Positions 29,943 through 43,959 of a DNA stretch of 64,000 nucleotides are shown in pieces. Both the position numbers and the translations under genes were made by a program. The stretch lies in the NCBI RefSeq assembly GCF_000177675.1, contig NZ_ADGX01000001.1, positions 62,001 to 126,000 on the forward strand, written 5' to 3'. The number at the start of each line of letters is the position of its first letter. Positions within the stretch are counted from its first letter, which is position 1. The DNA comes from Parafrankia sp. EUN1f. GTDB lineage: Bacteria > Actinomycetota > Actinomycetes > Frankiales > Frankiaceae. The notes under the pieces were generated by a model, which made no database searches, was not told where the DNA came from, and worked only from the letters and a program-made list of their open reading frames with translations.

Positions 29943-30333
29943 CTACGCGGCGGGGTGGTCCTGGAGGAGTACGAAGAGGGATTCGCCGAGGTTGAGTCGG
30001 CCGCCGTTGCGGGTGGTGATGGCGTCCGGGGTGACATGCCCGGATGTGTCGGCGAGTGCGGCGGTTGGGTGTTCCCCGGGGGTCACCGGGGGCGCGGGCA
30101 GGAGGGTCCGGCCGTCGGGGAGCAGCGCGACGATCGTTCCGTTGCTGGTTCTGCGGAGCACGATCTCCTCGTTGTGGAGGTGGCGGTGGCGGGTGCCGCA
30201 GACGAGGGTGAGGTTGTCCAGGTCGGTGTGGCCGCCGTTGGCCCATCCGGTGAGGTGGTGGATGTTCAGCCAGCGGGTGTGGTCGCAGCCGGGGCCGCAA
30301 CGGCGGTCGAACGCGGCGAGCAGACCGAGCCAG
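29943..30333 (-). pseudogene. 13E12-type HNH gene, 3' part (left flank of element)
   Basis: On the minus strand, the frame from the AGCCAG core reads WLGLLAAFDRRCGPGCDH, then an intact HNH core: LNIHHLTGWANGGHTDLDN and RHRHLHNE, and about 70 further residues to the stop at 29943. No start codon or N-terminal domain precedes it. It joins in frame (567 bases, 189 codons with stop) to the 5' part at 41511-41692. This is the C-terminal domain of the 13E12/DUF222 HNH family, which recurs in actinobacterial genomes. The whole gene would be short, 188 residues, as most of the usual DUF222 middle is missing. Confidence 0.8.
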
Positions 30334-30350
30334 CAGTCTACGCGATCATG
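30328..30350. other. Left attachment site (attL)
   Basis: Core AGCCAG (30328-30333) followed after 9 bases by the arm CGATCATG (30343-30350). The chromosomal arm GCGGCGA is at 30313-30319. Confidence 0.75.
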
Positions 30351-30438
30351 GCCGCATTCGTTGCGGTATTGACCGGACGGCGGCGGACGGTCCGTTTACG
30401 CAGGTCACGCGGCCCGTCCGCCGGTCGGCGTGCTCCGG

Positions 30439-30762
30439 CTATCCGGCCGCGTCGGTCTGGACGTAGCCGGCCAGGACGCTTTCGATGCGGTCGACCAGCC
30501 GGAAGTCGAGTTCGGTGATCCGCTGCCCGGCGCTGTAGGTGGTGAGGCTGAACGTCAGCTCTCCCCAGTGCAGTTCGACGTCGGGGTGGTGCTCCAGTTC
30601 CTTCGCGGACTCGGCGACGGCGCCGAGAGCTTCGATCGCGGCGTAGTACTCCACGGGGAACGTCTTGTGGATCTCTTCGCGGTCGGTGGCCTTCACCCAT
30701 CCGTCCAACGCGGCGAGACGTCGGGTGACCTCGTCGGCCGGTAGCGGGTCGCGTAGTCCCAT
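30439..30762 (-). CDS. 4a-hydroxytetrahydrobiopterin dehydratase-like protein (pterin-4a-carbinolamine dehydratase family)
   Basis: This 107-aa protein has the family length and pattern: GWVKATDREEIHKTFPVEYY, then AKELEHHPDVELHWGELTF, with the conserved HHPD stretch, and a C-terminal helix ELDFRLVDRIESVLAGY. In the classical enzyme, PCD/DCoH, the histidines HH dehydrate the pterin carbinolamine made by aromatic amino acid hydroxylases. Here the usual THdxGGLT segment reads TTYSAGQRITELD, so the third active-site histidine is absent and activity is doubtful. It is the first gene inside the left end of the integrated element, an unusual place for it. Standalone actinobacterial homologs occur widely. 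Confidence 0.8.
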   Translation of the reverse strand: MGLRDPLPADEVTRRLAALDGWVKATDREEIHKTFPVEYYAAIEALGAVAESAKELEHHPDVELHWGELTFSLTTYSAGQRITELDFRLVDRIESVLAGYVQTDAAG

Positions 30763-30776
30763 GCTCGTTTCCCTTC

Positions 30777-32282
30777 CTACAGCGTCGTCAGCAGAGCTTT
30801 GACCTGTCGTCCGGTCTCATGGTCATGCCACGGCGTGAGGTGGCGCCAAACTCCGTGGAGTTCCTGCCGTAGCCGCGCCGAACTCGTCTCCCGGGCGACG
30901 GTGGCGGCGTGCGTCACAGCGTCCGCGGCGGCGTCCGGATTCCCGGCGGTGGCCTGCCGTGCCCGGTACACACTGTTGTCTCGGCGGGCCGTAGCGGGCA
31001 GGGTCGAGATGACCTGCTCCCACAGGGGCAGGGCTTCGCGGCCAAGGCCGAGACGGTTGTAGCAGGTGGCCCGCTGGACCTCGATGTAGCCGGGGGTGCG
31101 TCGGCAGGCGTTGAACCACGGGTAGTCGTCATCGACGCGGGAGAGCAGCGCGGCGGCCTTGTCCAGGGCGTAGTCAGCGCCGCGCCGGTCGCCGATGAGG
31201 GCGTAGCCGTGGGCGGTCTGCTGCATCGCCTGGACCCGGACCTTCGCGCAGAGACTGTCCTCGTCCGCCAGTGCGGCGCTGGTGAGGTCGAGGGCGCCCG
31301 GCCCGTCCTGCTGGTCGGTGCAGATCATCGCCTTGTTGGTCAGCGCGTGTCTCACGAGCTGGGTGTCTCCCACCCGGTGCGCGAGTTCGAGCGCCTGATT
31401 CGCCCACTGCGACGCGGTCGCCAGGTCTCCGGCGTCCTGGTACAGCCAGGTCGTCAGACCCGCGTAGGCGACGCTGGTACGCAGCAGGGCCTGCCGTTCA
31501 GGTCCCCGGGCGACTCGCAGGAACTGCCGGATCAGCTCCTGCTGCACGAGCACCGACGGAATCACGGTGTGCGGGCCGAGAGCAGCGTCGGCACGGTAGT
31601 AGCCGTCAAGCTGCGCGGCCAGGTGCTCGATGGCCTCGGGCGCGACCTGCTGATACGACGCCAGGGGCATGACCTTGCCCCCAACCAGGAATCCCGCACC
31701 GCTTCCCGCAAGGAACGTGCGCCGGTCGATGGCCACGATGACCACCTCCCCTACATCGGCGATGACCCGGTACTGATCAACCGGCGGAGTCGCACTACTC
31801 TCGCCCGGCGCTTCGGCGACGCCGGGATACTCCGGCGGGGCCGATGGTCTGGGTTCGGGACCGGTCCGGGACGGCTTACCGGCGTGTGGTCGTGGCAGCT
31901 TGAACCACAGCAGGTCCTCTGGGATCCGCAGGGCTTCGGCCCATCGGATGAGCTTCGTGAGATCGGTGATCGGATCGCCCGATTCGATTCTGCTGAGCCG
32001 CGTCTGCGTGATGCCCATCCATCCGGCGACCGTCTCCTGTGACAGGGCAACCGGGTGGTGGGGATGGTTACGGTAGGCCGTGATCACCCGGCCTAGGTGG
32101 CGTTCATCGAGGGCGTCCCGGAGTTGATCGGACGCGTCCCAGAATCCGGCCGGTACCTCCGGTGCGCCAGTGCCGAGGTTGCGCGCCTGACGCTGACATG
32201 GCCCGCATGATCCCCGGTCGTTGTCACGGGCCAGGCGGGTTCCACACCGACAGTAGCGAGAATCGCCGTCGTGGTCGCTCAT
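30777..32282 (-). CDS. XRE-family transcriptional regulator with N-terminal Zn-ribbon and TPR domain
   Basis: The protein is 501 aa. The N-terminus has four cysteines (CRC near residue 11, CGPC near 26) that look like a small metal site. A helix-turn-helix of the XRE type follows at about residues 75-115 (LSQETVAGWMGITQTRLSR). After a Pro-rich linker and a hydrophobic segment (FLAGSGAGFLVGGKV), the C-terminal 300 residues are tetratricopeptide-like helices. Such regulators are common in actinomycetes and often lie beside mobile or developmental genes. It is 15 bp upstream of the PCD-like gene on the same strand. It may control the element's genes. Confidence 0.85.
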   Translation of the reverse strand: MSDHDGDSRYCRCGTRLARDNDRGSCGPCQRQARNLGTGAPEVPAGFWDASDQLRDALDERHLGRVITAYRNHPHHPVALSQETVAGWMGITQTRLSRIESGDPITDLTKLIRWAEALRIPEDLLWFKLPRPHAGKPSRTGPEPRPSAPPEYPGVAEAPGESSATPPVDQYRVIADVGEVVIVAIDRRTFLAGSGAGFLVGGKVMPLASYQQVAPEAIEHLAAQLDGYYRADAALGPHTVIPSVLVQQELIRQFLRVARGPERQALLRTSVAYAGLTTWLYQDAGDLATASQWANQALELAHRVGDTQLVRHALTNKAMICTDQQDGPGALDLTSAALADEDSLCAKVRVQAMQQTAHGYALIGDRRGADYALDKAAALLSRVDDDYPWFNACRRTPGYIEVQRATCYNRLGLGREALPLWEQVISTLPATARRDNSVYRARQATAGNPDAAADAVTHAATVARETSSARLRQELHGVWRHLTPWHDHETGRQVKALLTTL

Positions 32283-32533
32283 CGCAAGGGCGCCCCTTCG
32301 TGACCTCCCAGGCCCGGATCTTGCCTGCGTAGTCTATCCACCACGGTCGGTCGCATATGCGCCCGGCGCATGCCCGTCATGCGCACCTGTTCTAGTGATC
32401 ACGAGTCGTCGATCCCACGCTTGCGTCAGGCCCCGGGGCCGGGTCGAGAAGGCCGCACACCAGCATCGGCGGTGCGCTCCTCGGCCTCGGGTGCCGCTCC
32501 ACGCGATACCCCGGGCGAAAGAAAGGGCAAACA

Positions 32534-32806
32534 GTGGAACAGATAAGCGGTGGCCGTTCGGGCACACCGAACCTCGGCGCCGATCTCCCGCTGAGACTCC
32601 TAAACTTGCAGGGTGACGTCGCCGTGACCGCGATGGAGGAACTGGAAAGCAAGCTCATCGGCTACCGAGGCCGCCTGCCCACCGAACCCCTCGAATACGC
32701 CGCGCTGATGGAGAGAACCGAAAACGCTACGGAGGAAGTCAGGTGGATCAAAGACCAGCTAGCAAAGATCACCGGCCGGGAGGAAGGACGTTCGGCGAAG
32801 CTATAG
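32534..32806 (+). CDS. Small helical protein, unknown function
   Basis: This 90-aa frame starts at GTG 32534 (AAAGG upstream), with an alternative ATG at 32633. The C-terminal half (MEELESKLIGYRGRLP, then TENATEEVRWIKDQLAKI) is strongly charged and amphipathic, likely a coiled coil. It overlaps the next gene by 64 bases. I do not recognise the family. It is in the integrated element, divergent from the regulator gene. A regulatory or antitoxin-like role is possible but not supported by a motif. Confidence 0.5.
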   Translation: MEQISGGRSGTPNLGADLPLRLLNLQGDVAVTAMEELESKLIGYRGRLPTEPLEYAALMERTENATEEVRWIKDQLAKITGREEGRSAKL

Positions 32807-33090
32807 CCCAACGCATTCGTCCCTACGCCGTCCTAATCGGCTACGGTGTCCAGGTCGCCATCTTCGCCACCTGGAACGAAGCCCACATTTGGGCGCACGA
32901 GAAACTGCAAGACCCCAACGTCATTCTCCCCCTCGAAGTGGAAGACCGGACACAGCGGATCACGCGCCGCATCACCCGCGAAACATGCGAACTCATCGCG
33001 TGGACAATCTTCACGAAGGTCGGCGGTTGTGAACCGATGAATAACGATTTCGACACCGCCTATCGCGACCTTGACGGGAAGCGAGTCTAA
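32743..33090 (+). CDS. Small protein, unknown function
   Basis: This 115-aa frame starts at GTG 32743 with GGAGG 7 nt upstream, so translation is well supported. It contains a hydrophobic stretch (YAVLIGYGVQVAIFATW) and a basic segment (RTQRITRRITRETC). It overlaps the preceding small gene by 64 bases in another frame. It could be membrane associated. I do not recognise it. The pair overlap and position inside the element make a two-gene module, for example toxin-antitoxin, a possibility only. Confidence 0.5.
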   Translation: MDQRPASKDHRPGGRTFGEAIAQRIRPYAVLIGYGVQVAIFATWNEAHIWAHEKLQDPNVILPLEVEDRTQRITRRITRETCELIAWTIFTKVGGCEPMNNDFDTAYRDLDGKRV

Positions 33091-33290
33091 GCGGATCGCA
33101 CGTGTAAATACGTACTCTGGGGGCGACCGAACGTAGACGGGATCGACGGCTTGGCCCTAGATCAGGCACCGCCCGCAGTGACTGTCACTCCTTGGCGGTA
33201 GAATCCTACTACCGTTAGCGTCAGAACCACCGCCTAAGCCGGTTACTTCGGTGTTGCAGTGACGGGCTTCGTGCTCTGATCGGAGGCACC

Positions 33291-35054
33291 TTGACCCAGA
33301 TTGAGAGATCGCCGCAAGAGGATCTCCCCCGCCGGTCCCTGCTCTCAGTAGTCGTGGGCTCCATTGTTTGCGGAATCATCGTCACCGGTGCAGTCGGCTA
33401 TTTTGGTTGGACGTTCTTAGAGCGACTCGATTCAAACAATAATGTGGATTCTACCGAGGCGTTGGAACTCGCTAAATTCGCATTGACCGTAACGGCCGGC
33501 CTTGGCGCCGTCATAGCCTTGGTTGTTGCCTATCGTCGTCAGCGAGTTGACGAAGCGGCGCACCACCTCTCAGCAATGGCAGGGCATCGGGATCAGATTC
33601 GCTTGCTGAGCGAAAGATTCTCGACTGCGTCGACACTTCTCGGTAACCAGGAGGCGGCAGCCACTCGACTTGCCGGAGTTTACGCAATGGCTACTTTGGC
33701 CGACGAATGGGAGGACCAGAGGCAGTCATGTGTGGATGTTCTGTGCGCATATCTGAGGTTGCCCTATAGTCTAACCGACCTAGACAGGGCGGAACGTCAG
33801 GTGCGGTTCGCCGTGTACTCTGTGATTCGTAGTCATCTTTCGCCGGAATCTCCCATATCCTGGCGGAATCTGTCCTTCGATCTGTCGGACGCCAATCTTT
33901 GTGATGGATCCTTGGCGGGGATTGAGATAACGGAAGGGTCGCTCTCTCTAGCCAACTCTATCGTGTCGAAACCGGGCTTTTCCCTGGATGGTGCAGAGTT
34001 TCGCAATGCCACCGTCGACCTCTCCGGACTGAGGGTGGAAAGCGGGAAACTCTCATTCACAGGAACAATATTTATCGATTCCATCGTCAATGCGTACGCA
34101 AGTAGCGTGCTATCGGATGGAGTTATTGACTTCGGCAATGCAAATATCTTCGGTAGGAGCGCACTGAAATTTGAGAAGATGAGCCTGAATGGAGGGTGGT
34201 TAAACTTCGATCGCACAAGTATTTTGTGGGACCGGACTGCCAGGATGCCGCCACACGAATCCAGTATATCTTTCAAGGACTCGAAGTTCGACGGAGGGCT
34301 GTGCACGTTCCGAAACATGGAGGTTGAGTCGAGCCGCATTGGAATTCATTCGGATCGACGTCCATCCCCAATTGATTTCAGCTCGACCAGGAGTACGAAT
34401 TCTATTGTCAGCTTTAGTAAGGCTACCCTGCCGGACGGTCGAATTAATCTTGGTTCAATGCGAATCGACGGGGGCAAGCTTAGCTTCGAAAGGATGAGGG
34501 TCGGGGACGGTCTCATCGACCTATCCGGCGCAGTCTTGAGCGACGGTTGGATCAGCTTCGACGACGCAAAATTTTCTACAAGCGGCGACGCCGATGACAA
34601 CCTCATCATTCCGACCTGGCTCCGCAATCTCGACGGAAAGACCAATGAAGAGCGGCGCACGGTAAGGTACCTATCCCTAGACCACCCTCCGAGCTTTTTG
34701 GACTTCTCTGGGGCGACGCTTGACGGTGGAAATATCACATTCGAGGGGATGGACGCGACCTACGGAAAGATTGATTTTGTCGATTGTCGGCTAACGGCGA
34801 CAGCGATATGGGTGGCGACATGGTCGATTGGTAGCGCAGTCTGGGACTTCTGGCTATCGGAGTTCTCTGGCGGGCTATTCGTATTTGCACTTCCATCTAA
34901 TATGGTGTTCCTGATCGACGCCGATCAGGTGAGTGGAAGGCCATTCGCGGTCATTGAGAGACGATTTCACCATGGGAGCGAAGATGAATTGAGGATGGTT
35001 GGAAGTTTGGAGGAAATTAGTCGCCACGTCTATGGAATAAGTGTTTCAGAGTAA
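33291..35054 (+). CDS. Membrane-anchored protein with pentapeptide-like repeat domain, low GC
   Basis: This 587-aa protein has two membrane segments at the N-terminus (VVVGSIVCGIIVTGAVGYFGW and FALTVTAGLGAVIALVVAY, about residues 20-42 and 67-85), a helical segment (HRDQIRLLSERFSTASTLLG), then about 350 residues of short beta repeats with pattern x-L/F-x-x-A/G-x-F/I (for example SDGWISFDDAKFS, DGGNITFEGMDA). These look like a right-handed beta-helix related to pentapeptide repeats. Its base composition is visibly lower in GC than all neighbours, which points to recent transfer. GGAGG precedes the start. Function unknown; similar proteins occur in phage-resistance islands, so defence is one hypothesis. 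Confidence 0.7.
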   Translation: MTQIERSPQEDLPRRSLLSVVVGSIVCGIIVTGAVGYFGWTFLERLDSNNNVDSTEALELAKFALTVTAGLGAVIALVVAYRRQRVDEAAHHLSAMAGHRDQIRLLSERFSTASTLLGNQEAAATRLAGVYAMATLADEWEDQRQSCVDVLCAYLRLPYSLTDLDRAERQVRFAVYSVIRSHLSPESPISWRNLSFDLSDANLCDGSLAGIEITEGSLSLANSIVSKPGFSLDGAEFRNATVDLSGLRVESGKLSFTGTIFIDSIVNAYASSVLSDGVIDFGNANIFGRSALKFEKMSLNGGWLNFDRTSILWDRTARMPPHESSISFKDSKFDGGLCTFRNMEVESSRIGIHSDRRPSPIDFSSTRSTNSIVSFSKATLPDGRINLGSMRIDGGKLSFERMRVGDGLIDLSGAVLSDGWISFDDAKFSTSGDADDNLIIPTWLRNLDGKTNEERRTVRYLSLDHPPSFLDFSGATLDGGNITFEGMDATYGKIDFVDCRLTATAIWVATWSIGSAVWDFWLSEFSGGLFVFALPSNMVFLIDADQVSGRPFAVIERRFHHGSEDELRMVGSLEEISRHVYGISVSE

Positions 35055-35283
35055 AATTTGACGGGGCGACAATCCGATACATCCTCCCTCGTTTTTCGTG
35101 ATCCGTGGACACATGCAGATTCCTCGACCCACTTTCTAGGTGCTCAAAATTTCGCCGTGGTTACTATTCTAGGTATGCCGGGAAGTGTGCTAGATCTAGC
35201 GGTTCACCTAGTGGCCGATTGGGGCTGTATCTGATCTCCGGCGTCCTAGCGGCTGGCTCGCAGAATGTCCAGGAAATGCGAAA

Positions 35284-35313
35284 AAGGGGCGCCTGGGGGC
35301 GCCCCTTCCTTTT
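35284..35313. terminator. Intrinsic terminator with A/T flanks
   Basis: AAGGGGCGC and GCGCCCCTT form a 9-bp stem with a 6-base loop, preceded by AAA and followed by CCTTTT. It can act on both strands, for the low-GC gene and the convergent gene at 35325. Confidence 0.75.
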
Positions 35314-35324
35314 CGCTGAACGAT

Positions 35325-35738
35325 CTATGAAGTGGGGTGGGTGATGTCGTTGAGGTGGCGTCCGTACAGGCGGTAGATGCGGGCGTCGAGGATGGTGCGG
35401 AAGTCGGCCTCGGCCAGCGTCGGGGGGTCGGTGGTGGTGTCGACGGTGGGTGTCCAGCCGACGGGGCCGTCGGTGTCGGGGTAGGTCGGGCGCCGGGCGG
35501 GTGTGGGGATGGGGCCGAAGGTCAGGATGACGGTCGGGTCGGTGGGTTCTGCGGGTCGGTGGTCGAGGTAGACGACGCGGGGCAGGGTTGCGGTGACGTC
35601 GATGAGGTCGTGGAGGTCGGCGCCGGGGGTGAGGGTGAGTCCGTAGAGTCCCCGGTCGGTGCGGCGGACGGAGACGAAGCGTTGGCCGTCGAACGGGTTG
35701 CGCCAGGGGCCGTGGTCGGGGGGCTGAATACTGGGCAC
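35325..35738 (-). CDS. Small hypothetical protein of the element
   Basis: The 137-aa protein starts at GTG 35738 (AGGAG 10 nt upstream); a longer frame begins at 35846. It contains FDGQRFVSVRRTDRGLYGL, then a Thr/Pro-rich stretch, and ends LNDITHPTS. I do not recognise a family. It is divergent from the small HTH gene, and the two share a TTGGGGT repeat region. Possibly a regulator-controlled partner of the HTH protein. Confidence 0.55.
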   Translation of the reverse strand: MPSIQPPDHGPWRNPFDGQRFVSVRRTDRGLYGLTLTPGADLHDLIDVTATLPRVVYLDHRPAEPTDPTVILTFGPIPTPARRPTYPDTDGPVGWTPTVDTTTDPPTLAEADFRTILDARIYRLYGRHLNDITHPTS

Positions 35739-35826
35739 AGGGTCACGTCTCCTGTCGGTGGCAGGGGTGTGGTCCAGGTCCGGGGACGGTGTGCCAGCAC
35801 TGACCTCGGACCGCTGCGTGGACCTC

Positions 35827-35867
35827 TTGGGGTAGGGCAACCCCAATGGTAGGTGGCTGTTTGGGGT
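35827..35867. promoter_or_regulatory. TTGGGGT repeats in a divergent promoter
   Basis: TTGGGGT at 35827, its inverted copy ACCCCAA at 35840-35846 and a direct copy at 35861-35867 lie between the two divergent genes. A TATACC box near 35874 could be a -10 for the HTH gene. They look like operators for the HTH protein. Confidence 0.5.
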
Positions 35868-35887
35868 TGGGCTATACCATCGCGGCC

Positions 35888-36085
35888 GTGACCGACGAAT
35901 CGCTGTGGACGACCGGCGACATCGCCAAGGAGCTTGGGGTCACGACAGAGCGGGCGCGTCAGCTCTCGCACCGGCCGGACTTCCCGGTGCCGGTGCAGAC
36001 GGTCCGGCACTTCCGGCTGTGGCGCGCGTCGGACGTTCAGGAGTGGATCGCCCGGCGTCGGCCTGCCCCTGACGATGGCACGTGA
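35888..36085 (+). CDS. Small HTH protein, excisionase/AlpA-like
   Basis: The 65-aa protein starts at GTG 35888, possibly leaderless after TATACC. It has the short MerR/excisionase-like pattern LWTTGDIAKELGVTTERARQL followed by RPDFPVPVQ and RHFRLWRASDVQEWI. That is the helix-turn-helix and wing of AlpA/Xis-type proteins, which regulate or direct excision of integrated elements. A longer frame from 35846 lacks similarity. Inside a serine-integrase element it is a good recombination directionality factor or repressor candidate. Confidence 0.65.
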   Translation: MTDESLWTTGDIAKELGVTTERARQLSHRPDFPVPVQTVRHFRLWRASDVQEWIARRRPAPDDGT

Positions 36086-36737
36086 TCTGTGGCCTGAGAT
36101 CCGACCGTCGGTTGTCGCCCGGCGGCCCCTCCGGTCCCCGGAGAGCCGGCGGACAGTGACGAATAAGGCTGCGTTGGGCGCGGGTCGGTGGTGCTTGCTG
36201 CAAGCGGCACGGCTGCTTGCGTAAGCACCCCTGTAAAGCGGGCGAAACTGGCGCTGAACTGGGTGTTTTCGTGTAAGCGGCCAAGCTGGCGGATCGCGAA
36301 AACCGGGCAAAACCAGCCTTGAGACCCCGCCCCACGTCCGACTGCAAACCGTCGGCGATCGGACGTTCGCCGCGCGGTCGATCACCGACGGTAGCCGGCG
36401 GGGTGGCCTTGCGGTGGATCTGGGGACGGTCTCGGTGTGTTCGCGGGCCGTGGTCCCCGTGGATGTCCGTACCGGTCACGCATGGTTGCCACGGTCATCA
36501 CGTGATAGTGAGGATGTGGGTGAGCCCCGCGCCGGCCGGTCTGGCCCTTCACGTGATTGACCAGGGTGTCCTTCGATCGATCTGCCGGCTGTGTCGGTGC
36601 GGGGCTCGTGTGCGCTCACCGGACGGGCGGGTGACCTTATAGGAGCCTGGCCAGAGGCCCCGTCACTGTCTTGTCCGCCGCCCGGCTGGTGCGTGCCGCA
36701 CCCCGTCGATCGAGGTGAAGGGACGGCTGTCGTCACG
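36086..36737. other. Non-coding DNA upstream of the IS110-type gene
   Basis: About 650 bp with no supported gene, just upstream of a transposase of the IS110 family. In this family the bridge RNA is encoded in a non-coding end of the element, often upstream of the gene. I cannot fold or align it by eye. The motif ATAGGAGC at 36639-36646 recurs at 38260-38267, downstream. Confidence 0.4.
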
Positions 36738-37810
36738 ATGGCACAGCAGCGGCAGGCAGTCGACGTCGTCGGTGGTGTGGACACCCACCGGGACACCCAC
36801 ACGGCGGCGGTGCTCGACACGGCCGGGCGCCAGCTTGGCTCGGCGCAGTTCCCGGCGACAGCGGCTGGCTACGGCCAGCTGCTGGAGTGGATGTGCGGCT
36901 TCGGGACTGTGGTGAAGGTCGGGGTCGAGGGGACCGGTTCCTACGGTGCGAACCTGACCCGGTATCTGACCGGGGCGGGTGTCACGGTGGTCGAGATCGA
37001 TCGTCCCGATCGCAAGACGCGGCGCTGGCAGGGCAAGTCCGACCCGGTCGACGCGGACGCCGCTGCCCGCGCGGTGCTGGCGGGGCGACGTACCGGGGTC
37101 CCGAAGGATCGTGACGGGAGGGTCGAGGCGGTACGCGCGTTGCGGGTCGCCCGCCGTGGGGCGGTCAGCCACCGTGCGGACGTGGTCAGGCAGATGAAGG
37201 CGCTGATCGTGACCGCACCGGAACCGGTCCGCGCCGCACTGTCCGGGCTGACCACGGCCCGGCTGGTCGCCGTGTGCGCCGAGGTCGAGGTTTCCGCCGC
37301 CCAGGCGGGGGATCCGGCGGTGGCGGTCCGCCTGGCGCTGCGCAGCCTCGCCTGCCGCGTGCGGCACCTGTCCGATGAGATCGTCGACCTGGACAAGGTC
37401 ATCGGCCGGCTTGTCGCCGTGGTCGCCCCGAAGCTGCTCGCCGTGAACGGTGTCGGTGCCGACTGCGCTGGCCAGCTTCTCGTCAGCGCGGGTGACAACC
37501 CCGACCGGCTGCGTTCCGAGGCGGCGTTCGCGATGCTCTGCGGTGTCGCTCCGCTGCCTGCCTCGTCCGGGCGGACGCACCGCTACCGGCTCAACCGCGG
37601 CGGGGACCGCCAGGCCAACGCCGCGCTCTACCGGGTCGTGCTCTGCCGGCTGCGTTGGGCCCGGCCACCCAGGCCTACTCCCAGCGCCGCACCGCCGAAG
37701 GCAAGACCAAGAAAGAGATCATCCGCTGCCTCAAACGCTACGTCGCCCGGGAGATCTACACGATCCTCACCGCCACTGCCCTATCGAACGATCTTTCTGC
37801 GGCTGCGTGA
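36738..37810 (+). pseudogene. IS110-family transposase, frameshifted near the C-terminus
   Basis: The N-terminal RuvC-like DEDD domain is present: VDTHRDTHTAAVLD (Asp), VEGTGSYG (Glu), KSDPVDADAAARAV (Asp, Asp). The C-terminal Transposase_20 domain is present with PLPASSGRTHRYRLNRGG, carrying the serine. At about 37660 the frame breaks: the reading shifts and the family's usual RTAEGKTKKEIIRCLKRYV segment is found in another frame, ending at TGA 37808-37810. The coding frame without correction runs to about 37910 but with unrelated residues. The element may be inactive. ATG 36738 is the chosen start. The IS lies inside the integrated element. Confidence 0.75.
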
Positions 37811-37906
37811 CCTTTCTGGGAACCTTGACGGAGGAGGACCGCTGCTGCCGATCGGGGGCCGGATCAGATCACGGCCGGCGCCGCGTTCCAGGGGAGGTCT
37901 CGCGTC

Positions 37907-38224
37907 GTGATGTGGCACTGGATCATGCTGGCCTCCTTCTCTGTCACCCTGCTACCCGCAGGACTGGCCCTGACCGCCGACCGGGCGCCACGCCGCCTGC
38001 GCGCCAGGATAGGGCCGGTGCGCCCGGTGGGCTGGGGCGTGCTGCTGATCTACGCCGCAGCGCCCGTCGACACGGTCCCGCGCCTGGCTGGCGCTTCCCT
38101 TGACGTGATCTTCGTGTGCAGCACTGCCGGCGGCGTCCTGTGCCTCGCCGGCGCCCTGCTGGGGCGCGTCAGCATCTATCGGTATCAGAGCCGCGCCACC
38201 GATGGACCATGGACCGCCAGCTGA
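37907..38224 (+). CDS. Small integral membrane protein
   Basis: The 105-aa protein starts at GTG 37907 (GGGGAGG 9 nt upstream). It has two or three hydrophobic segments: WIMLASFSVTLLPAGLAL, PVGWGVLLIYAAAPV, and LDVIFVCSTAGGVLCLAGALL. I do not recognise a family. It follows the broken transposase and could be IS cargo or an independent gene of the integrated element. Moderately confident it is real because of the ribosome site and clean membrane pattern. Confidence 0.55.
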   Translation: MMWHWIMLASFSVTLLPAGLALTADRAPRRLRARIGPVRPVGWGVLLIYAAAPVDTVPRLAGASLDVIFVCSTAGGVLCLAGALLGRVSIYRYQSRATDGPWTAS

Positions 38225-38361
38225 TCAAGGTCGGACACGCTCATGTGCGCTTGACATCCATAGGAGCATCAGTGGGTAGCGGCGGACCGGTTCTTGGCCG
38301 CGGTGCGCGCGACCATTCCGATTACTAATCGTAATGGTCGGCACCTCGTCGGGAGCACGAG

Positions 38362-38440
38362 CTGTTAGCGGCAGGGGTGCTAACTGTTAGCACCACCGTT
38401 AGCGGGCCATAGTGCTTCTGAGCTGGGACTTAGCGTGTTA
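38362..38440. repeat. GTTAGC iteron-like repeats
   Basis: Four direct GTTAGC and one inverted GCTAAC copy, all within 80 bp, spaced irregularly; a fifth near-copy (CTTAGC) lies within. Confidence 0.7.
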
Positions 38441-38608
38441 GCGGGTGCCTCGTCGAAACGGCGAAAAGCCGCCGAAACGAGTGTCCGACCCCTCCTCGTG
38501 CCGGGCCGCGTGCGGCAGGCCGGTCCAACCCTCCCGCTTGCGATAGTCGCTTAGAGTGATTGATTGCCGAAGTCGTCGATGGGCGCGACCATCGGTCGGG
38601 CGGGCCGC

Positions 38609-38767
38609 CGGTGGTAGCGGTAGCGGCAATGCCGCCCGGCGCACCCCCATCTACAGCCGATCGCGGCCGGTCGGCGGTTCCGGCCGCTACCCGCTACCTT
38701 CACCAATGTCCGCAGGTCAGACCCGGTCCGACCGGTAGCGCCACGGGTAGCGCCACCGCTACCCGTG
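38609..38767. repeat. GGTAGCG repeats with a perfect palindrome
   Basis: GGTAGCG or its inverse occurs at least seven times. The last part is the perfect inverted repeat CACGGGTAGCG-CCAC-CGCTACCCGTG at 38742-38767. Confidence 0.7.
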
Positions 38768-38965
38768 CCGGCCAGCGCGCTACCTCACTGCGTCAAGCGT
38801 CGCCGTATCTGGTCTTGCGTCAGTGGTGATGGCCTGTCGCTGGCCTTACGTCATCCGGGGCCTAGGGTGGCCCGTCAAGTTTCCGTTCCAACTGATCACG
38901 GCGACCCGGGCCTGGCGTCGGGGGCGGCGCACAGCGTCGGCGGGATGGGCGTAGACAATGGCGCG

Positions 38966-39484
38966 ATGCCCGATGATGAGTCACGACCAGTCTGGCCGAC
39001 CAATGCGGCCGGAGAGACCTACGGCTCGGCAGTGCCGGCCGTGAAGCTCGGCCTGCCTCAAAGCGACTGGCCGGACCTGATCTCGGCGGGGCTCAGGGAC
39101 GGGAAGCGCGGCTACATCAGGCGGACCGAAATGGAAGCTGCGCGCGGTACCTATCTGCCCCCCGCCGAATTCGCCGAATGGAACAAGAAGGCCGCGGCAC
39201 GGCGTGCGGCCGGAGAGCGCACCCTGATCCCGGTCTACGAGCAGGACGGCGTGACCGTCATCGGCACGTTCGTAATGGGCTCCGCCGAACCTGCCCTGCC
39301 AGCGTCGCCAGGGCGGCCTGGAGGTGTGCGGCGCGCCGCCGCTCCAGCCAGTGACGCTCCAGCCAGCGACGCTCCAGTCGCGTGGTTCCTCGGCGGAGAG
39401 CCCAGACCGGATGACCGGACTCCGGCGGAGAGGCCAGACCGGATGACGGGGCCCCATCCCGACACCGACAACACGAACGACTGA
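38966..39484 (+). CDS. Conserved hypothetical protein of actinobacterial elements
   Basis: The 172-aa protein starts at ATG 38966 (ATG 38945 also in frame). It reads MPDDESRPVWPTNAAGETYG, then AGLRDGKRGYIRRTEME and IPVYEQDGVTVIGTFVMG, a pattern I know from many small actinomycete proteins of unknown function. The C-terminal third is Ala/Pro/Asp rich with a short ASDAP tandem. A TAGACA box directly before the ATG fits a leaderless transcript. Located in the integrated element; function not known. Confidence 0.6.
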   Translation: MPDDESRPVWPTNAAGETYGSAVPAVKLGLPQSDWPDLISAGLRDGKRGYIRRTEMEAARGTYLPPAEFAEWNKKAAARRAAGERTLIPVYEQDGVTVIGTFVMGSAEPALPASPGRPGGVRRAAAPASDAPASDAPVAWFLGGEPRPDDRTPAERPDRMTGPHPDTDNTND

Positions 39485-39660
39485 ACCCGGCTCACAGCGC
39501 CCCTGCAGGCCAGTTCAAACATCGCCTGACACTCACCGGGCCGCGCCGCACGGCGGACGGATAGCCCCGGGTCCGCCGACGGCCGGACTCCACGCCCGGA
39601 AATGGGATTAATTCAAGGTCATCAAGCGTTGTAACAAGTAGGAGATGCTGTCGGTCAGGG

Positions 39661-40017
39661 TTGATCGGCGTTCTCCGGTTCTGGACCCGCCGCCCGGCAG
39701 CACCTGCCCGGCGGGCGGTGGCGTGTCTGCCCCGTTTCGCCGTTCTGGAGGCCACCACGGTCGCGTCGCCCGACCTCGCCTGCACACGCACGACACGACG
39801 GACCCGTACCCGGAAACGCAACAGCCGCGCCGTCACCGGCGCGGCTGCCACGACCGCGATCCCCACTCAACGGACACCCGACCCGGCGCCCACCCCCGGC
39901 ACGGACGACGTCCGGGAACGATGGCTCACCGAGACACTCGCCCGTGCACCGGCCTTACCCGCGCCGGTGCGGGCCCGGATCGCGCGCATCCTGCACGACC
40001 CGCCCGGCGACAACTAA
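39661..40017 (+). CDS. Small hypothetical protein, convergent with integrase
   Basis: The frame runs to 118 aa; the start is uncertain (TTG 39661 or GTG near 39718). The C-terminus TDDVRERWLTETLARAPALP then ARIARIL looks like a real helical domain seen in short actinobacterial proteins near phage-like integrases; the N-terminal part is basic and low in complexity. Its stop overlaps that of the integrase by 4 bases in convergent orientation. Low confidence that the N-terminus is correct. Confidence 0.4.
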   Translation: MIGVLRFWTRRPAAPARRAVACLPRFAVLEATTVASPDLACTRTTRRTRTRKRNSRAVTGAAATTAIPTQRTPDPAPTPGTDDVRERWLTETLARAPALPAPVRARIARILHDPPGDN

Positions 40018-41456
40018 TCCTGACCGGCAGCGTCGGTCTCGTGCTGCCGCCAGTGCACCGTCACCCGGTTGGGGTCGAACGGCTTGCGGCCCCAACCGGT
40101 CGGTGCGACCTCGATCCGGTCGACCAGCAGCGTGAGGATCGACCGGCGCCGCATCAGCTCACCCGACTCCCACGCGGCGATCGCGTCCGGGCCGGGCAGG
40201 ACGACCCGTCGCAGGGCCTCCTGCTCGGCTTGGCGCCGCAGATCGTTGCGTTCCGTCTCCGCGGCGCGGTGCGCGCTGCCGTACGCCTCATCCGACAGCT
40301 CCCCGCGCGCCCACATCCCGGCCAACCGGTCCATCCGCGACCCCAGCTCCGCGAGCTTCGCCGCGCTGGTCGACGGACCCTCCTCGGCCGTGTACTCGGC
40401 GTACGCCCGCAACCGGCGTCCGATCAGGTCGGTCAGAAGGTCTTCGACCGGCCGTGCCGGTACGTGAACCTTCGTCGCGCACGAGTCGCCGATCACCGAG
40501 CAACGGAACGCATCCGGCCGCCGGCTGCTGACGGTGCTGCGCATCCGGGTTCCGCAGGTCGCGCAGACCATGAACCCGGCGAGGAGCTGCTTCACCTCGT
40601 TGCCGGGCACGATCCGGCGGGCCGCCCGCTCCTCGATGGTGGCCTTCAGCGCCTGCCACTCCTCCACCGGCAGGATCGGCTCCCAGTCGCCCGGGGCCAC
40701 GATGTTGTCGTAGCCCTTGAAGCTGCGCAGCCCGGCGATGCCCGGCTTGACGAGCATCCGCCCCAGCACCGGGCCGTCCCACCACTTCCGACCTTGCGCG
40801 GTCGGCACGCCGCGCCGGTTGAGGTCCATCGCGATCGCGTGCACCGATTCGCCGCGCATCACCCGGCGGGCCACTTCCCGCAGGATCTCGGCTTCGTCCG
40901 GCTGGATCAGCCAGGTCACGACGATCTCATCGCCGATGATCTCGCGCTTGCGCTGGTAACCGTAGGGCCGCTTCCCGCCGGGGAACCGGCCCTGGTCCGC
41001 CATCCGGACGTGCGCGCGGGTCACCCGCGCGGAGATCTTCTCCGACTCGTTGGTGTCCTTCACCCCATCGGAGTCGAACTGCCCCCGACCGACCTCACTG
41101 GCGAAGTCGTAGACCGTCCCGTCGGTCGTGTAGACCTTGCCGTGCACCGCCTCCATCAGGTCGATGAACTCGGCCCGCTGCAGACGCTGGCGGACGAGAC
41201 GGCTGCCCCGGACACAGCCCACAGCCGTCCACCTGCCCGCCCGGATGTCCCGGATCAGCCGGTTGTACTCCGGGCGCTCAGCATCCTTGTTGAACGCGGA
41301 GATGTCGTTGTCCTCGTAGACCTCACCCAACACCAGGCCGGGGGTCCGCTCGATGAGGTCGATGACGTCCGAGGTCTGGTCACTGACCCCGTGCCGCTTG
41401 CCGTACCGGTCATAGGAGATCCGGACGTAGACCGCGACCGGGACGTCACCGGACAT
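40014..41456 (-). CDS. Serine integrase (large serine recombinase)
   Basis: The protein is 480 aa from the ATG at 41456. The N-terminal resolvase domain starts AVYVRISYDRYG with the nucleophile Ser near residue 14, and continues VYEDNDISAFN and AVGCVRGSRLVRQ. The recombinase domain holds GRFPGGKRPYGYQRKRE and LVKPGIAGLRSFKGYD. A zinc ribbon (CATCGTRMRST, later FRCS) and a coiled-coil-containing C-terminus follow. Enzymes of this kind catalyse phage or element integration between attP and attB without host factors. The gene starts 55 bp from the right attachment core. It is the likely mover of the whole 30328-41516 element. Confidence 0.95.
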   Translation of the reverse strand: MSGDVPVAVYVRISYDRYGKRHGVSDQTSDVIDLIERTPGLVLGEVYEDNDISAFNKDAERPEYNRLIRDIRAGRWTAVGCVRGSRLVRQRLQRAEFIDLMEAVHGKVYTTDGTVYDFASEVGRGQFDSDGVKDTNESEKISARVTRAHVRMADQGRFPGGKRPYGYQRKREIIGDEIVVTWLIQPDEAEILREVARRVMRGESVHAIAMDLNRRGVPTAQGRKWWDGPVLGRMLVKPGIAGLRSFKGYDNIVAPGDWEPILPVEEWQALKATIEERAARRIVPGNEVKQLLAGFMVCATCGTRMRSTVSSRRPDAFRCSVIGDSCATKVHVPARPVEDLLTDLIGRRLRAYAEYTAEEGPSTSAAKLAELGSRMDRLAGMWARGELSDEAYGSAHRAAETERNDLRRQAEQEALRRVVLPGPDAIAAWESGELMRRRSILTLLVDRIEVAPTGWGRKPFDPNRVTVHWRQHETDAAGQD

Positions 41457-41495
41457 GTGCGGAGTGTACGACGCTGTGGGCCCATAAATGGCGGG

Positions 41496-41516
41496 CATGA
41501 TCGTGCGCATAGCCAG
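41496..41516. other. Right attachment site (attR)
   Basis: Arm CATGATCG (41496-41503), then 7 bases, then core AGCCAG (41511-41516). The chromosomal arm TCGCCGC is at 41524-41530. Confidence 0.75.
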
Positions 41517-41692
41517 GTGCAGGTCGCCGCGGCGATCCGGCCCGCCCACTGGCAGATCGCGGTCTCCAGCTCGGCGACCGGGACGGCGTCGGGATCCACC
41601 GAGAAACCAGCAGCGTCCGCAGCCGCAGCGGCGGCAGCGGCGGTGGGGGTGTCGTCAGGAGGAACATCAGCAGTTTTGATCATGAGAATCAC
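41511..41692 (-). pseudogene. 13E12-type HNH gene, 5' part (right flank of element)
   Basis: The minus-strand frame from GTG 41692 (or ATG 41683) reads ADVPPDDTPTA, an Ala run, then VAELETAICQWAGRIAAATC and TW, which matches the start of DUF222/13E12-type HNH proteins. It ends at the AGCCAG core, after which integrase-side DNA takes over. It joins in frame to 29943-30333. Together they would encode 188 residues with DUF222-like N-terminus and HNH C-terminus. Confidence 0.75.
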
Positions 41693-42189
41693 CGGGCCAG
41701 GGGTGCCGTCGACCAGTCGGACCCGTGCATGGTCACACCGACCACCGACAGTTCCCGCAACCCAGGCTCAACCCCGACCCTGCCCGTGGTGACGGCGGGC
41801 CCGACCGTGACGGTCCGCGACGGGTGCGGGGGGCGGTTGCGCCGAACCGCCCCCCGCACCCGGGCAAACACCCGCTCGCCAGTGCGCACAACCGCCTGGC
41901 CAGCCCGACGCGCTCCATACCCTGCGCCGAAGGCCTCCGGACCCCAACGGCGTTCGTTGGGCAGCGGCGAGAGTCATCCGGCACCGGCATGTCCGCGCCG
42001 GTCGCGACCGAGAAGCCCTCGGCCACAAAAATCAATGGAGGCTCACGAGGCGGGCTCGGCGGGCAACCCTTTACACACAACACCCGCAGCCCTGTTCGGT
42101 GACGCGGCATAGTCATGTTCGATGGCGGGGGATCATCCAGGTCATCACGCCCAGTCCCCGCACGCACCAAACCAGGGAGCGTTACCCGC
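41693..42189. other. Intergenic, nothing clear
   Basis: About 500 bp between the disrupted HNH gene and the DUF262 gene. Both flanking genes point away from it, so promoters are expected. No element or repeat stands out. Confidence 0.45.
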
Positions 42190-43959
42190 ATGGCCTTCTG
42201 CACTCCAGTGACCGTGGCCGAGGTCCTGGCTGGGATCCACAAGAAGAACTACCTGCTTCCAGCGATCCAGCGGGAGTTCGTCTGGGACACCAGCCAGATC
42301 GTGCGCCTGGTGGACAGCCTGATGCGCCGCTACCCGATCGGCTCTTTCCTGTTCTGGGCGATCGAGCCCCAGGAAGCACAGAGCTATACCTTCTACGACT
42401 TCCTCACGTACTACCACGAGCGTGATCATCCATATGCGAGCAAGGCGTCGGTCCCGGCCGGCCACGGCGTCACCGCCATACTCGACGGCCAGCAGCGGCT
42501 GACCGCGCTCAACATCGCTTTCTACGGCACGCACGCCGAAAAGAAGAAGTACATGGCGGCGAACAACCCGAACGCCTTCCCGAAGAAGGTGCTGTACCTC
42601 GACCTGCTCGAGAGCCCGGACAGCGACGAGTCCGACCTGCAGTACAACCTGCGGTTCCTCACCAAGGAGGAGGCGAAGCCAACCGCCGGCGCTCCGGACC
42701 GCTGGTTCCCGGTCAGCGGCGCGCTCATGCTTTCCGATGGCGGGCCGGCCGTGATGGACGAGCTCGAGCGGCGAGACATCCTCGGTCATGGCAAGGGCCC
42801 GTTCCAGCGCCTGTTCGCCCTATACCACGCCCTCCGAGAGGCGAAGCCGATCAACTACTACCTGGAGGACTCCCAGGACGCCGACAAGGTCGTCGACATC
42901 TTCATCCGGGTGAACAGCGGCGGCGCGACGCTGTCGCACTCCGATCTTCTTCTGACGATGGCCACCAACCTGTGGACGGAGCATGATGCCCGGGAGGAGG
43001 TACGAGGCCTGGTCGAGGAGCTGAACGGCGGCGGTGGCCGGCACTTCGACTTCTCCAAGGACGTGGCGCTCAAGACCGCGCTGATGGGTGCGGGCGGAGA
43101 CATCAAGTTCCAGGTCGCCAACTTCACCCCGCGGAGGATGGCGACAGTCGAGAGCCAGTGGGGGGCGACGAAGGACGCGCTCCTGCGTGCTGCCACTCTG
43201 CTACAGACTTTCGGCTTCGAGGCCCGTACGCTGACCGCCGACAGCGTCATCATCCCGATTGCCTACTACCTGCGGCACCGCGGTCTGACGGACAGCTACC
43301 TGACGTCGTCGGCGGCGGCCGGCGACCGCGCGCAGCTACAAAGCTGGGTCATCCGCTCGCTGCTGAAGCGCGGTATCTGGGGCTCGGGCCTCGACGGGCT
43401 GTTGACCCGGATCCGACAGACGATCGACGATCACGGCGCCGACGGATTCCCGATCGAGGAGATCGAGAGCGGGATGACGGCCCTGGGAAAGTCGCTGAGC
43501 TTCGACCCGACCGAGGTCGACGACCTGTTGGAAATGAAGTACGGCGGCCAGCGGACCTTCGCGACCCTCGCACTGCTCTACCCGGGCCTCGACCTGTCCA
43601 AGCAGTTCCACCAGGACCACATCTTCCCGAAGTCGCGGTTCACCAAGAAGCGGCTGGCCGACGCCGGCATTCCGGCGCACCAGATCGACGCGTACATCGA
43701 CGCGGTGAACCGGCTGCCGAACCTGCAGCTGCTCGCCGAGATCCCCGGCATCGAGAAGAGCGCCAAGCTGCCTGCGGACTGGCTCGCCGAGAAGTACTGG
43801 ACCGACGCGAAGCGCAAGCAGTACCAGGCCGACAACGATCTCGACGGCCTGCCTCTCGACCTCACCTCGTTCCTGGACTTCTACGAGCAGCGCAGACAGC
43901 GGATGCGCACCCGGCTCACCACGATCCTGGGCATGGCCGCCCCGACGCGCCGGGTCTGA
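42190..43959 (+). CDS. DUF262/HNH protein, GmrSD-like restriction enzyme candidate
   Basis: The protein is 589 aa from the ATG at 42190 (GGGAG 10 nt upstream). The N-terminal DUF262 (ParB-like) domain has LLPAIQREFVWD near residue 23 and ILDGQQRLTALN near 98, the motif tied to nucleotide binding. FIRVNSGGATLSHSDLL near 240 is typical of the family. The C-terminal half contains FHQDHIFPKSRF, an HNH-type motif, then NRLPNLQLL. Single-chain proteins with both domains resemble GmrSD type IV enzymes, which cleave modified phage DNA. It sits alone beside the integrated element. Confidence 0.85.
   Translation: MAFCTPVTVAEVLAGIHKKNYLLPAIQREFVWDTSQIVRLVDSLMRRYPIGSFLFWAIEPQEAQSYTFYDFLTYYHERDHPYASKASVPAGHGVTAILDGQQRLTALNIAFYGTHAEKKKYMAANNPNAFPKKVLYLDLLESPDSDESDLQYNLRFLTKEEAKPTAGAPDRWFPVSGALMLSDGGPAVMDELERRDILGHGKGPFQRLFALYHALREAKPINYYLEDSQDADKVVDIFIRVNSGGATLSHSDLLLTMATNLWTEHDAREEVRGLVEELNGGGGRHFDFSKDVALKTALMGAGGDIKFQVANFTPRRMATVESQWGATKDALLRAATLLQTFGFEARTLTADSVIIPIAYYLRHRGLTDSYLTSSAAAGDRAQLQSWVIRSLLKRGIWGSGLDGLLTRIRQTIDDHGADGFPIEEIESGMTALGKSLSFDPTEVDDLLEMKYGGQRTFATLALLYPGLDLSKQFHQDHIFPKSRFTKKRLADAGIPAHQIDAYIDAVNRLPNLQLLAEIPGIEKSAKLPADWLAEKYWTDAKRKQYQADNDLDGLPLDLTSFLDFYEQRRQRMRTRLTTILGMAAPTRRV

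Follow-up and report, generated by a model that had tools for sequence, protein, structure and literature searches.

A probably helper-mobilised serine-integrase element related to AICEs occupies one site in 13E12 genes of Parafrankia

The window analysed here, a stretch of 64,000 nucleotides (G000:C396:62001-126000) from the 9.35-Mb, 396-contig genome of Parafrankia sp. EUN1f (G000), contains an integrated element that splits a 13E12 (DUF222-HNH) gene (30334..41510; 11,183 bp core to core). Both junctions recur in two other Parafrankia genomes, G004 and G003 (Parafrankia soli NRRL B-16219, contig NZ_MAXA01000213.1), and an orthologous empty site exists; judged by these comparisons, the element is real and not a chance arrangement. 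Comparison of the genomes further shows insertion at one exact site, in different copies of the gene, and an exchangeable cargo slot. We consider it likely that this is an AICE-descended integrative element with exchangeable cargo and its attB at codon ~68 of 13E12 genes, which would excise and spread with a helper or with chromosomal DNA. Helper mobilisation is the probable mode.

The element is bounded by two copies of the core CTGGCT on the minus strand, reading AGCCAG on the plus strand. The right core (41511..41516) forms the junction with the 5' half of the 13E12 gene, where the gene strand reads GCGACCTGCACCTGGCT followed directly by ATGCGCACGATCATGCCC. The left core (30328..30333) forms the junction with the 3' half, where GGCCATGATCGCGTAGACTG, CTGGCT and CGGTCTGCTCGCC stand in succession. 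The right attP arm ATGCGCACGATCATGCCC (41493..41510) pairs with the arm at the opposite end, and the left arm GGCCATGATCGCGTAGACTG (30334..30353) adjoins the left core. Joining the element ends yields an attP whose core lies between the inverted arms CATGATCG and CGATCATG, with 17 of 30 positions matched; such inverted arms are expected for a serine integrase site. The same junctions are found in G004 (L036) and G003 (L038/L144), with the gene part slightly changed. The large serine integrase (40014..41456, minus strand; phrog_95) is composed of Resolvase, Recombinase and zinc-ribbon domains and adjoins one att site; together with an attB found unoccupied and a short core repeated identically at the two ends, these are the features of a large serine integrase element. 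The initial annotation had proposed a serine-integrase element splitting one 13E12-type gene at AGCCAG, with this core at both junctions and the integrase starting 55 bp from the right one. The cores lie where it placed them, the best integrase start (41456) agrees with that distance, and the split is borne out by an orthologous pair of empty and occupied sites and by the junctions in three genomes.

The 5' piece of the target gene (41511..41692, minus strand) matches the N-terminus of full-length paralogs up to residue 68. The 3' piece (29943..30333, minus strand) carries the HNH motif (PF01844, 2.3e-6) and an internal deletion of ~290 codons at ~30294. Joining pieces 41692-41511 and 30327-29943 keeps the frame: 182 + 385 gives 567 nt, or 188 codons and a stop, and the rejoined frame reads TCTWLGLLAAFDRR continuing into CGPGCDHTRWLNIHHL. 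The window copy would span only 188 codons because the ~290 codons that full copies hold between FDRR and PGCDHTRW are gone. The earlier expectation that excision restores an intact frame thus holds for the open frame but not for an intact gene: most of DUF222 is missing, and the intact genes of relatives span ~480-493 codons. Uninterrupted paralogs carry CCTGGCTGG; the open frames of unsplit copies measure 531 and 560 codons (for the first, the 480 codons from the methionine were used). Besides the unsplit gene on C225 described below, G000 has two more unsplit paralogs, on contigs C366 and C388. G004 has 0.9 kb more than the window at the 3' piece, its rejoined copy spans 493 codons and has no stop, and its 3' half confirms the DUF222 and HNH domains of the unsplit gene (PF02720, 4.3e-16; PF01844, 2e-5). 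In G003, the 3' half is frameshifted and cut.

The empty site was found by comparison with G004. The left chromosomal flank of the G004 element (L036:2857-8089) matches G000 contig C225 (L097) at 94.5% identity. In the adjoining gene, L036:8100-8508 aligns with L097:586-211 and L036:17922-18137 with L097:216-1, leaving a 6-bp overlap of the length and place of the core CTGGCT. Since the two halves overlap in L097 by the core, the orthologous 13E12 gene is unsplit in G000 (C225) and split by the element in G004 (C8). The search for an unsplit gene in relatives that had been suggested with the initial annotation thereby yielded this orthologous pair as well. The window copy itself sits at another locus; for the corresponding G004 locus, spread over contigs C27 and C12, the assembly breaks within the 13E12 gene. 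Upstream of the window gene lies a perfect 18-bp inverted repeat (window:41821-41862), and homology between 13E12 copies reaches this repeat; the repeat unit may thus be longer than the gene itself. A DUF262-type gene (42115-43959; PADLOC HEC-05, 691 bits) adjoins the split gene; it represents a stretch of ~2 kb (window:41905-43885) that is absent from the same G004 locus.

The backbone of the element includes, next to the left arm, a pterin-4a-carbinolamine dehydratase-like (PCD) gene (30439..30762, minus strand; PF01329, 7.6e-20), located behind an XRE-TPR regulator of the NsdA family (30777..32282, minus strand; NF053720, 165 bits against a cut-off of 75). This XRE/PCD pair (window:30439-32282) is kept in eight other Frankiaceae loci, in two of the eight beside RepSA. 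The conserved protein p115 (32743..33090, plus strand) is encoded alongside p90 (32534-32806). On the other side of the cargo slot, p173 (35325..35846, minus strand; real start probably 35738) belongs to a Frankiaceae family that adjoins RepSA in AICEs; its predicted structure has a mean pLDDT of 64.5, and a fold search with it gave no significant match. Divergent from p173 is a 72-aa HTH protein, HTH72 (35867..36085, plus strand), a candidate excisionase or recombination directionality factor (PHROG excisionase, 5.8e-8), which is 96% identical in G004 and 86% in G003. Among HTH proteins near other serine integrases, a clearly similar one was found in G023 only; there (L010:2949-3438), CTAG clusters flank the small HTH gene, 45% identical to HTH72, downstream of an integrase that is 36% related. 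A conserved ORF (38765..39484, plus strand; real start probably later) is 78% identical in G004 and missing in G003. The window element additionally contains a 1.8-kb IS110-family insertion (36507..38274, plus strand; transposase 36591-37910; PF01548/PF02371), which is absent from the 9,419-bp element of G004.

The cargo slot (33041..35187) is located between p115 and p173. Its borders, 33040/33041 and 35169/35188 in the two comparisons, agree within ~20 bp, and its genes differ from element to element. The slot has a GC content of 53% in the window and G004 and 61% in G003, and the backbone 67-69% (67% in the window). In the window it encodes a 587-aa pentapeptide-repeat protein with N-terminal helices (33291..35054, plus strand), relatives of which are so annotated on Streptomyces plasmids; this protein has no Pfam match above cut-off and no PADLOC match, and its structure prediction, with a pLDDT of 41, is of too low quality for use. 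The G004 slot carries DUF6119/TIGR04141, and the G003 slot carries Mrr-type nuclease, HNH, Nudix and AdoHcyase-like genes together with a weak restriction-nuclease-like match; in genome G013, the Nudix/AdoHcyase pair likewise comes after the XRE module. The right border of the slot is located in an array of CTAG-rich palindromes (35136..35246; consensus TGCTAG-RY-CTAGCA), the only such cluster in the window, where CTAG averages 0.07 per 160 bp. This array is conserved at four loci adjoining p173, with six CTAG in the window, eight each in G004 and G003, and six in G006, beside a p173 homolog. It is absent from the resident AICEs, so a shared transfer site is not supported, and a tandem-repeat search for a clt-like locus gave no strong array.

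Among the 58 genomes searched, the integrase has close relatives only in G004 (96% identity) and G003 (88%), the next being at most about 38% identical, and the three Parafrankia integrases form one fully supported clade in a tree built with a quick method. No relative was found in viral_contigs, and annotated phages and plasmids contain only distant integrases, at ~30% identity or less. All three Parafrankia insertions lie at codon ~68 of a 13E12 gene, and the element sits in different 13E12 copies, as shown for two of the three genomes. The element copies are 92-93% identical in nucleotides and the hosts 94.5%; the copies are thus as diverged as their hosts and give no sign of very recent exchange. 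The IS110 insertion and the internal deletion of the target gene suggest that the window copy may be inactive.

The genome of the window holds two complete AICEs, whose Tra was found by Pfam. One, on contig C387, is arranged as Tra (FtsK/SpoIIIE), RepSA, homologs of HTH72 and p173 in divergent order, and a tyrosine integrase; the other, on C344, contains Tra, RepSA, a p173 homolog and an integrase. The divergent HTH72/p173 pair of the window element is arranged as in the complete Tra-RepSA-Int AICE, with weak identities of 29-35% to the complete-AICE homologs. Moreover, G013, which we take to be Frankia CcI3, and G005 contain PCD-XRE-p90-p115 beside RepSA and another, apparently broken serine integrase. 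The XRE regulator is in line with a report on Frankia AICEs, where the NsdA family is the second XRE type (PMC3218068). The window element has the site-specific integrase of an AICE and the Xis-type HTH of the rep-int interval (homolog in L154; PHROG excisionase). Among its ORFs there is no match to a replication initiator (RepSA, RepAM or Prim-Pol), RepSA of the genome being on other contigs, and its ORFs given to Pfam include no FtsK match for an FtsK/SpoIIIE-type Tra, which the resident AICEs have; a Walker-A motif scan missed even the resident Tra proteins and was set aside as evidence in favour of Pfam. A relaxase, as expected of an IME, was found neither by Pfam nor by PHROGs. The earlier statement that the element holds no structural phage or conjugation gene agrees with our Pfam and PHROGs searches. 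The accompanying statement that its transfer mode is unexplained is right as to the absence of rep and tra, but it overstates the mystery in view of the AICE-like backbone and the two complete resident AICEs.

In the mechanism we propose, the serine integrase would have recombined an attP in which CATGATCG arms flank CTGGCT with the attB that lies at codon ~68 of the 13E12 gene, a gene present in several copies. Excision would be carried out by the integrase with HTH72 as putative directionality factor. Because no recognised rep, tra, relaxase or capsid gene is present, we infer that the element spreads via the Tra pump of a resident AICE or along with chromosomal DNA. The cargo would be what the element delivers: the pentapeptide protein here, and elsewhere DUF6119/TIGR04141, or Mrr nuclease, HNH and Nudix.

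A former AICE that has lost rep and tra and is now decaying as a static genomic island would fit the IS110 insertion, the deletion in the window target gene, the broken target of G003 and the equal divergence of elements and hosts. We regard this as unlikely. Three genomes share an undamaged, conserved integrase frame and backbone and have kept the att sites, and in two of them the element is shown to sit at different 13E12 copies. With rep or tra seen in none of the three elements (0/3), a single streamlined form that they have in common is more plausible than three independent losses. It is quite improbable that the element is a phage satellite, excised and then packaged by a helper phage. 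The best phage integrases are only 28-30% identical, viral_contigs hold no integrase relative, Pfam and PHROGs detect no capsid, terminase or other structural gene, and the backbone modules match AICEs, although the integrase belongs to a phage integrase family (phrog_95), the target family is that of phiRv1 and the size is near the 9.3 kb of phiRv1. Both phiRv1 and phiRv2 are now termed PICI-like, a type defined by a major capsid protein together with integration genes (PMC10654092), and of these the element has the integration genes and no capsid match. Finally, the two pieces could derive from different 13E12 genes joined by recombination, with an immobile stretch between them, as several 13E12 copies exist in the genome and the window pieces lack the middle of the gene. 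This is hardly credible: in G004 both halves of one full gene flank the element, and G000 has an unsplit gene at the orthologous locus, which refutes a two-gene origin for G004.

Beyond Parafrankia, comparisons indicate that 13E12 genes are a recurrent landing pad and that their targeting has several independent origins. At 13 of 65 distinct serine-integrase loci, a non-random set that owes most of its members to similarity with two 13E12-targeting integrases and includes the three Parafrankia copies, a 13E12 piece lies less than 700 bp upstream of the integrase (in three weaker cases of the 13, 141-400 bp away); downstream the count is 0/65. Well-supported branches of the integrase tree (quick method) force at least six changes of the 13E12-adjacency label. 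In G009, presumably Frankia alni ACN14a, a 478-aa integrase lies 37 bp from a C-terminal 13E12 piece (residues 389-478), with the N-terminal piece 7.4 kb away; G019 contains a near copy. This 7.4-kb element (L158:5347-14369) splits 13E12 inside the HNH motif; among its products are a GntR/UTRA regulator and a DUF218 protein. Outside Frankiaceae, in another family, G221 (L220:3644-8239) has a 13E12 gene interrupted at residue ~390; a serine integrase lies at the break, and both halves were found, 4.3 kb apart. Other integrases border on a 13E12 piece, at residues 356, 369, 388 or 390, with only one half seen. The open literature searched gave no DUF222 or 13E12 target beyond phiRv1. The phiRv1 core is GGTTGGCCGTGG (PMC3986857). 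In G328 (genus g10, taken as Mycobacterium) a 13E12 gene contains it, in frame, within its C-terminal PPPHLDHGQPRINHYHHPEKLL tail after HNH. It is found in frame once more (L241), at another position within a 13E12 gene; both positions differ from the DUF222 site of the present element. With G328 being a genome other than that of M. tuberculosis, and with this further occurrence, placing the phiRv1 core in the C-terminal tail leans partly on general background about the phiRv1 attB. The initial annotation had considered the target choice conserved with phiRv1; the gene family is indeed common, but the site differs (codon ~68 against the C-terminal tail), and because different integrases chose 13E12 repeatedly at different codons, convergence fits better than conservation.

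The element described here, probably AICE-descended and helper-mobilised, is a variant of AICE-related integrative elements. Of greater general interest is the independent, repeated targeting of 13E12, by which the single case of phiRv1 in REP13E12 becomes a testable rule: a multi-copy gene family as recurrent integration target. A wider reading, that 13E12 is a general actinobacterial landing pad, to which several serine-integrase lineages turned independently and at different codons, and the Parafrankia family a mobilisable AICE satellite, with the CTAG array as cis-acting transfer or maintenance site and cargo-slot border, is conceivable but rather doubtful. For Frankia and Parafrankia, two genera with poorly developed genetics, the defined attP/attB pair and its integrase might provide an integration vector. 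In addition, an element without tra and rep beside complete AICEs offers a clean system for testing mobilisation by AICE Tra pumps.

Compared with known systems, the element resembles phiRv1 of Mycobacterium tuberculosis in its large serine integrase, its size of ~10 kb and its 13E12-family target, but it inserts at codon ~68 in DUF222 whereas the phiRv1 core GGTTGGCCGTGG lies at the 13E12 C-terminal tail, and it lacks the capsid gene of the PICI-like phiRv1 (PMC10654092). The G009 element likewise splits a 13E12 gene, with a serine integrase ~34% identical and no rep, tra or capsid gene among the ORFs scanned; it differs in its site in the HNH motif (codon ~389), its unrelated backbone, its GntR regulator and its DUF218 protein. 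The AICEs of Frankia, and AICE-like elements without tra or rep (PMC3218068), are similar in the NsdA-type XRE, the Frankiaceae hosts, the HTH72/p173 pair in the xis position and the Nudix cargo, here that of G003. The present element differs in having no Rep and no Tra, a serine integrase and a 13E12 target, and no description of a PCD gene or CTAG array was found there for the group. It fits the published description, with the difference that it forms a family whose content is conserved.
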